NCBI GenBank assembly: GCA_009869945.1
Contig: WIXG01000195.1
Coordinates: forward strand, 1 to 64,000
Length of the DNA stretch: 64,000 nt
From: Mesaphorura yosii
Taxonomy: Eukaryota; Arthropoda; Collembola; Poduromorpha; Tullbergiidae
Direction of reading: 5' to 3'
Within the stretch, counting starts at the first letter, position 1, and each line of letters opens with the position of its first letter. Below, piece by piece: positions 47,193 to 48,726 of this stretch. A program made the position numbers and the translations under genes. The notes beneath the pieces are model-generated. The model was not told where the DNA came from. It was given only the letters and a program-made list of their open reading frames with translations, and made no database searches.

Positions 47193-48726
47193 TTAGTACG
47201 TGGGCGAATTTCCGGCTCTTCTCCGCAGCTCGTCCGAGGAAAGCTCACCGTCACCATTCTCGTCAATGTACTTTTCCACCACCACTCTCGCAAGTTCTGG
47301 ATTGTTTCGAATTTCGTCCGCCAGCCAACTGTTTGGGTAGCTTCTGGAACCATAAAGACAGAAACCAGTAATCAGTTTATCAGAACATAAAAACTCATTC
47401 TTTGACCTAACGGGCTTGAGTTCCAGGAAAAGTACGGAAAAGGATAGCTTAAACTTTAGGAAGGATTTATTTCCGAACTCAATCGAAGAAATTGGTCGCT
47501 GAACTACTCAAAATAATGTTGTCACTGGCTAAATCGGTCTGCTACAGGAATTTTCTTTCACAACAGACGTAGACTCAAATTTTTGTAAATCTGGCAATGC
47601 AGATGTAGGTGGCTGGTCGTACAAACCAAATTCACGCCATTTACGGTTGACGTGCTCGAGAACAATACGAATGCGGAAATGTGAAATATTTCAAACAAAG
47701 TATTTTTACATTTTGTATTGGCTCTGATCTAGCTGATTTCATTTCCTTGTCAAATGTAGTGTAAATTGTCTCGGAGTTTGAAAGAAAATTGACTTAGTCA
47801 TTCAATGCGTCAGCATCGAGCGTGAAGTTAAGATAGAGGAAACGGAATGCGATTTGCTTGGGCATTTCCTCTATTCGGACTTGAATTTGGTTTCTTGAGA
47901 GAGATTTGAGTGAAATTCCACGGTTTGAGGTTGGCGTTTCTTTTCGGGGAGCTCACTCATTTTTGTGGTGGATGAATGAGGAATGACGCACCACACCGTC
48001 TTTGTATTAAACGGGCTGACTAACAGATTTTCTCCTGATTGGAATTGAAACCAAGCTCGCAAGATAATAAATTAAATAAGTTTCTGATTATCTCAAGCCA
48101 GGATACAAATTGCCAGGCACCGAAGACAAGAAGGCAAGCGTCTGCACTCCGCACGAGTTATAATTTACGGAGCCCGCAGGTTTTAATTTCATGAACGGAA
48201 ATTGAAAATGGGTTGAAAAATTCTAGTCAAGCCGAAACTGGAAACGTGAAGAGAGCATTTACCCTTGTCTTGCACTCGTGTCGAATCCTCCGTCAGTTTT
48301 TAGCAGCCTGGACTGTGGTGACAGCAGAGAAAGTAGCGGTCGTTGTTGCTGCATTTGCATTTGGACCGGTAATCCAATGAAGCCATCGCGCTTCCCAAAA
48401 CCTCTTGCTACAAAAACGAAAGCAAAGAAATATGAATTAAATTGGAATACATAAGAAATCTTGCATCGCGTATCATGTAAACTGCCTTTCACCATGATGC
48501 CCTCACCTGCACAGCTTTGCTTTGTCTCATTTTGCCTCGGCAAACACAAAGCAAATTTAACTAAAAATTCTCCGAAAGCCTCACCTGTTGAAAGTTTCGA
48601 GTTCTGAATCTGCAGTCCGGCTCTGTTTGTGCGAGGGTTGCTCGTCTTCTCTGGATCCGGGTAGCCTGAGACCATGGACGATGCCAGGAGCAGGCATGCC
48701 AGCAGTGAACAGAGCAGTTGAGACAT
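47193..48726 (-). CDS. Allatotropin-like neuropeptide precursor with C-terminal EF-hand, 145 aa
   Basis: Exons: 48726-48585, 48407-48263, 47343-47193. Residues 1-21 form a hydrophobic signal peptide (MSQLLCSLLACLLLASSMVS). An RTNR furin-type site ends at 35. Residues 36-51 are [16 protein letters not shown], followed by G52 (amide donor) and KR 53-54, so one peptide ending TARGF-amide is predicted, the defining end of arthropod allatotropins. The peptide is split by an intron in the codon before RGF. After a Gln-rich spacer, exon 3 codes WLADEIRNNPELARVVVEKY and then a complete EF-hand loop DENGDGELSSDE (123-134). The start Met follows a splice acceptor (CTTTAG|aATG), so a non-coding first exon must exist upstream. 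The peptide would act through an allatotropin (orexin-like) receptor, which is not in this window. Confidence 0.85.
47344..48262 (-). other. Second intron of the neuropeptide precursor gene (919 bp)
   Basis: It separates the exon carrying RGFGKR from the EF-hand exon. It is long compared with neighbouring introns, as is frequent in neuropeptide genes. No other exon was recognised inside it; alternative exons, known in some insect allatotropin genes, cannot be excluded. Confidence 0.55.

Follow-up and report, generated by a model that had tools for sequence, protein, structure and literature searches.

Organization of the precursor gene

The 64,000-nucleotide stretch of DNA analysed here (the window) carries on its minus strand, between positions 47193 and 48726, a gene with three exons and GT/AG borders that our splice model predicts to encode a 145-residue precursor; these outer coordinates, proposed in a first-pass annotation of the sequence, are exactly those of the coding span from ATG to TAA in the model. 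Coding exon 1 (48585-48726) contains the ATG, the signal peptide, a spacer, the basic site RTNR, 12 residues of the peptide and the first base of an Ala codon, and its 3' end is TCAACAG followed by a GTGAGG donor. Intron 1 (48408-48584; 177 nt, phase 1) runs in the model from GTGAGG to TTTTTGTAG, is free of stops in frame and interrupts the Ala of TARGF. Exon 2 starts at 48407, directly after TTTTTGTAG, and the split Ala codon at the join reads G/CA (phase 1). Coding exon 2 (48263-48407) supplies the remainder of TARGF, the G-KR that follows it and the middle of the tail, and it ends at 48263 before the donor GTAAAT. Intron 2 (47344-48262; 919 nt, phase 2) extends in the model from GTAAAT to GGTTCCAG, the acceptor in front of exon 3 being TTCCAG, and coding exon 3 (47193-47343) encodes the C-terminal tail and includes the TAA stop codon. 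A candidate polyadenylation signal, AATAAA, lies 3' of the stop on the same strand (46967-46972), and another AATAAA begins at 46602.

The neighbour gene at 45149-46287, on the opposite (plus) strand, encodes a DFP-domain protein (one piece scores 23.8 bits, above the cut-off of 22, and the other 19.5, below it) that is probably phosphopantothenoylcysteine synthetase. Two ordinary genes, one for an MCM protein (MCM_lid) and one for an arfaptin-like protein, lie on the plus strand at 34333-35019 and 39606-40529. The genome has 66 matches to PF00379, the arthropod cuticle-protein domain; the insect odorant receptor family PF02949 had no match in the genome, and the search controls likewise gave no match. 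The genome is probably a compact one of a non-insect arthropod, although the lack of odorant receptor matches is no proof of this. A tardigrade origin was set aside, though not disproved: the published peptide He-PDF-3 had no match in the genome, an empty result that carries no weight by itself, and the cuticle-protein matches favour an arthropod.

Neither exon alone shows TARGF, because intron 1 splits its Ala codon, and the first-pass proposal that the motif is created by joining exons 1 and 2 holds in the model. The gene illustrates how a neuropeptide can escape ordinary translated searches when an intron interrupts its signature.

Is intron 1 in fact removed? The reading frame does not require its removal, because the intron is frame-neutral and stop-free: its length is a multiple of three (59 codons), the list of open reading frames holds a single 164-codon frame that runs from exon 1 through intron 1 into exon 2, and the unspliced reading across the intron is VFVARGF-G-KR. 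With the intron retained, the gene would make another secreted protein, and the amidated product of that protein would have FAFVFVARGF-amide at its end in place of LSTARGF-amide. Against this stand the consensus-like donor (CAG/GTGAGG) and a long pyrimidine-rich tract before the TAG, the exact family motif that splicing restores by a type of join found in none of 100 random windows (below), and an orexin-type receptor gene elsewhere in the genome (below). We consider retention very improbable and splicing far likelier, because splicing would use consensus-like sites and brings back the family signature.

The predicted peptide and its likeness to allatotropins

The spliced model contains all of the processing signals that had been listed for it in the first-pass annotation, namely a signal peptide, the RTNR site, an amidation Gly and KR. 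The predicted signal peptide (MSQLLCSLLACLLLASSMVSG, residues 1-21, 48664-48726) was delimited from the translation and its hydrophobicity, with its end judged by eye; the N-terminus is strongly hydrophobic, its best 12-mer (from residue 4) having a mean Kyte-Doolittle value of 2.87, compared with 0.90 for the best 12-mer from residue 36 onward. This hydrophobic start is followed by the basic site RTNR (48622-48633, read directly from the sequence), which immediately precedes the peptide and in which the Arg at the cleavage point has another Arg at position -4. In the splice model, exon 1 contributes 12 residues of the mature peptide and the first Ala base (48585-48621), exon 2 contributes the remaining Ala bases and RGF (48397-48407), and the amidation Gly and KR dibasic cleavage site follow at 48388-48396, with an RGFGKR-type pattern match at 48389-48405; all of these features are on the minus strand. 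Splicing would give TARGF-G-KR, from which the amide itself is predicted. The layout is a signal peptide, a 14-residue precursor peptide, the 16-residue peptide, the amidation Gly, KR and a 91-residue tail, and the calculated [M+H]+ of the predicted amidated 16-residue peptide is 1689.94.

Could such an arrangement be accidental? The short RGFGKR pattern alone is uninformative, because its genome count is no higher than that of the reversed control: as a DNA pattern it has 8 matches in the genome searched (93.0 Mb in 1127 contigs) and 11 when reversed, a background that favours a chance arrangement, or a decayed gene, spelling the motif by accident. Seven of the 8 matches lie outside the gene; in frame, four of these seven read RGFGKR, two RGFGKS and one SGFGKR, and TA directly before the motif, in the pattern frame, is found at none of the seven. 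When both strands of the window were searched for TARGFG[KR][KR] formed by a splice-compatible join (introns of 40-1500 nt, a GT[AG] donor and a [CT]AG acceptor, with every split allowed that leaves one or more residues in either exon), the exon 1/exon 2 join was the single example, and first-order Markov windows gave 0 in 100. Accident and decay are further opposed by the intactness of all parts, which are in frame over three exons with a start, a stop and a 3' AATAAA, by the EF-hand-type loop of the tail (below), which arises by chance in just 115 of 200,000 shuffles of the 91 tail residues, and by the presence of the receptor gene. We regard a fortuitous or decayed motif as exceedingly improbable; the locus very probably holds a genuine gene for allatotropin, a hormone of a well-known family. 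A protein search of the genome for a second gene copy (E ≤ 10) found the gene's own three exons only, with the two best first-look candidates scored; a diverged paralog could be overlooked by this search.

When its 13 C-terminal residues are aligned with an insect allatotropin, 8 of 13 are identical, including the LSTARGF end and the Asn of GFKN. The likeness to the insect allatotropin of many Polyneoptera extends to the single amidated peptide, its LSTARGF-amide end and the Asn in position 4 of the 13, and in the precursor to its approximate length, the signal peptide, the short precursor peptide after it, the single-Arg site in front of the peptide and the KR behind it. The differences lie in the N-terminal half: the peptide has 16 residues here and 13 there, QIQNSK replaces GFKNVA, and AGL is added in front. 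The intron inside TARGF and the EF-hand-type loop in the tail may prove to be further differences.

Polyneopteran precursors have KR behind the peptide and, in most of them, a single Arg before it (PMC7179676). The precursor peptide is 14 residues long here compared with 17-21 in Polyneoptera, and the 145 residues of the precursor are slightly above the polyneopteran range of 102-142 (PMC7179676). The 13-residue allatotropin amide of many Polyneoptera might be ancestral for Pterygota (PMC7179676); outside insects, there are reports of allatotropin in Daphnia and in copepods and of a putative one in amphipods, whereas decapods seem to have lost it (PMC6158917; PMC4888303). The N-terminal half of allatotropins varies among lineages (PMC7179676; PMC6585902).

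The insect-type GFK(N) start is replaced here by AGLQIQN, in which the Asn alone is kept. That start is not defining, since the beetles other than Pogonus in PMC6585902 have also lost the N-terminal GFK. The first-pass annotation had remarked on the difference and suggested that the peptide may be a new family member; the difference stands, and the suggestion is to be softened, given the 8 of 13 identities and the variability of the N-terminus among lineages. The divergence at the N-terminus is ordinary variation and does not make a new family, because 8 of the 13 insect residues are kept, and the gene is best read, from its sequence, as a new allatotropin ortholog with a lineage-specific N-terminus and not as a new branch. 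Convergence at the C-terminus by another RGF-like family is likewise exceedingly improbable: the peptide exceeds the insect one by three residues and shares with it just 8 of 13 C-terminal residues, but the complete LSTARGF end is among those shared, most allatotropins have TARGF-amide as their conserved C-terminal pentapeptide (PMC4357254), and an orexin-type receptor gene is present.

A probable receptor gene on contig C25

Our lead to a receptor was the motif RWYAIC. Its pattern has two matches in the genome (the reversed control has one); one lies within a GPCR-like frame on contig C25, and the other reads SWYAI and then a stop. When the TM3-TM5 pieces of the C25 gene were compared with PDB sequences, orexin receptors were the 12 best of the 60 matches shown from 336 sequences, at 70-82 bits, and the next match among those shown was an NPFF receptor at 41.5 bits. 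The remaining helices were located by a transmembrane-signature scan of 48 kb of C25, which placed TM1 at about 68.9 kb, TM2 at 69.1, TM6 at 88.8 and TM7 at 89.1, in correct order around TM3-4 at 78.7 kb and TM5 at 82.1-82.7 kb; an additional TM1-like match at 60.8 kb was excluded from the joined receptor model. With the pieces joined, orexin receptors were again the 12 best of 60 matches shown, here from 309 PDB sequences, with scores of 248-273 bits, and the next of those shown was a neuropeptide FF receptor at 149 bits. The orexin receptors among the PDB matches of the C25 GPCR are vertebrate proteins.

Most class A receptors have DRY at the site that corresponds to the RW of this motif. 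The C25 GPCR has RW there (ERWYAIC), a likeness to the locust allatotropin receptor, for which a DRW motif is named (PMC4357254). The TM3-TM4 piece has 40 weaker GPCR-like matches elsewhere in the genome (the best 37 bits, compared with 95 for itself), among which there may be a further orexin-type receptor.

The window itself contains a second class A GPCR gene (54636-56377, minus strand), which lies upstream of the allatotropin gene at a distance of about 6 kb. The same procedure gave 56 PDB matches for it, the best of which was a nociceptin receptor at 39.7 bits, and no orexin receptor was among them. The exon borders of both this gene and the C25 receptor were judged by eye.

By the PDB comparison, an orexin-type receptor is encoded in the same genome as the peptide, and the C25 gene is probably a receptor gene of the orexin/allatotropin type. 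It is the strongest independent support for the allatotropin identity. The architecture of the precursor, the peptide alignment and this receptor gene all support the first-pass description of the locus, in which an allatotropin precursor yields a single predicted amidated peptide.

The precursor tail and the proposed pathway

The tail encoded by exon 3 contains a 12-residue EF-hand-type loop, DENGDGELSSDE (47229-47264, minus strand), recognized by a PROSITE-type pattern for the EF-hand loop and by Pfam and PDB sequence matches. Three Pfam EF-hand models match the loop, every one with a score under its own cut-off; for example, EF-hand_5, for which the cut-off is 25.9 bits, reaches 18.3 bits (E 0.0015). 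Exon 3 matched 64 PDB sequences at E ≤ 1, the best (E 6.1e-5) being a calcium-binding protein whose value sums weak repeats and the second calbindin D9k (E 1.1e-4). A structural model of the 49 residues of exon 3 is a helix-loop-helix of low confidence (mean pLDDT 64.4), and a Foldseek search of the PDB with it at E ≤ 10 returned no match. The EF-hand case rests on the loop sequence, because this low pLDDT and the lack of a Foldseek match leave the fold evidence empty. EF-hands usually work as pairs, and the pattern search found no second EF-hand-type loop in the 145 residues; the usual pairing is absent.

A limited literature search found no link between an allatotropin precursor and an EF-hand. 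This does not make the tail new, because precursor sequences are mostly given in figures and subscription papers were thinly covered. Insect allatotropin precursors may have conserved and similar tails. In two papers that mention both allatotropin and EF-hand, the latter stands only in titles of cited work on other proteins; among these is a 1998 report by Bogdanov that, by its title, describes a land snail neuropeptide precursor gene with an EF-hand region, and the likeness to the tail described here is one of title only. Of the whole gene, the EF-hand-type tail alone might come as a surprise to a specialist.

What might the tail do? Most likely the tail with its loop would serve as a spacer, or would bind Ca2+ and so assist folding or packing in the Ca2+-rich secretory granule. 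It is unlikely, if conceivable, that the lone EF-hand is functional in a stronger sense, binding granule Ca2+, perhaps pairing with that of a second precursor molecule, and so coupling the sorting or condensation of allatotropin to Ca2+.

Prohormones are secreted, cleaved at basic sites, trimmed, amidated and released. Following this route, the transcribed and spliced precursor would enter the secretory pathway by means of its signal peptide and would be cleaved after RTNR and at KR; a carboxypeptidase would remove the KR, and the Gly would be converted to the C-terminal amide to give the 16-residue amidated peptide. Enzymes of the PAM/DBH superfamily of monooxygenases are present in the genome by a Cu2_monoox_C search, in which PAM is not separable from its DBH-like cousins. 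Cu2_monoox_C (DBH/PAM-type monooxygenases) has 49 genome matches on several contigs, 15 of them in open frames of at least 300 codons, and 11 of these 15 are on the small contigs C531-C1103; the family is expanded and apparently intron-poor.

Neurons or endocrine cells would then release the peptide, which would act on the orexin-type GPCR of contig C25, and in target cells of muscle, gut or endocrine tissue the receptor may in turn raise Ca2+, cAMP or both. Activation of the locust receptor increases both Ca2+ and cAMP (PMC4357254). The best joint explanation of the locus is an allatotropin gene, apparently present once, whose amide is processed and released and acts on the C25 GPCR; we give this reading a probability of roughly 0.93.

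Because a single small arthropod genome supplies both an allatotropin-type ligand gene and a probable receptor, the pair is directly testable in a cell assay. If the lone EF-hand were functional, the tail would do work within the prohormone and would be more than a spacer, and if an EF-hand-type tail is common to other allatotropin precursors, it would offer a simple, checkable lead on prohormone sorting.
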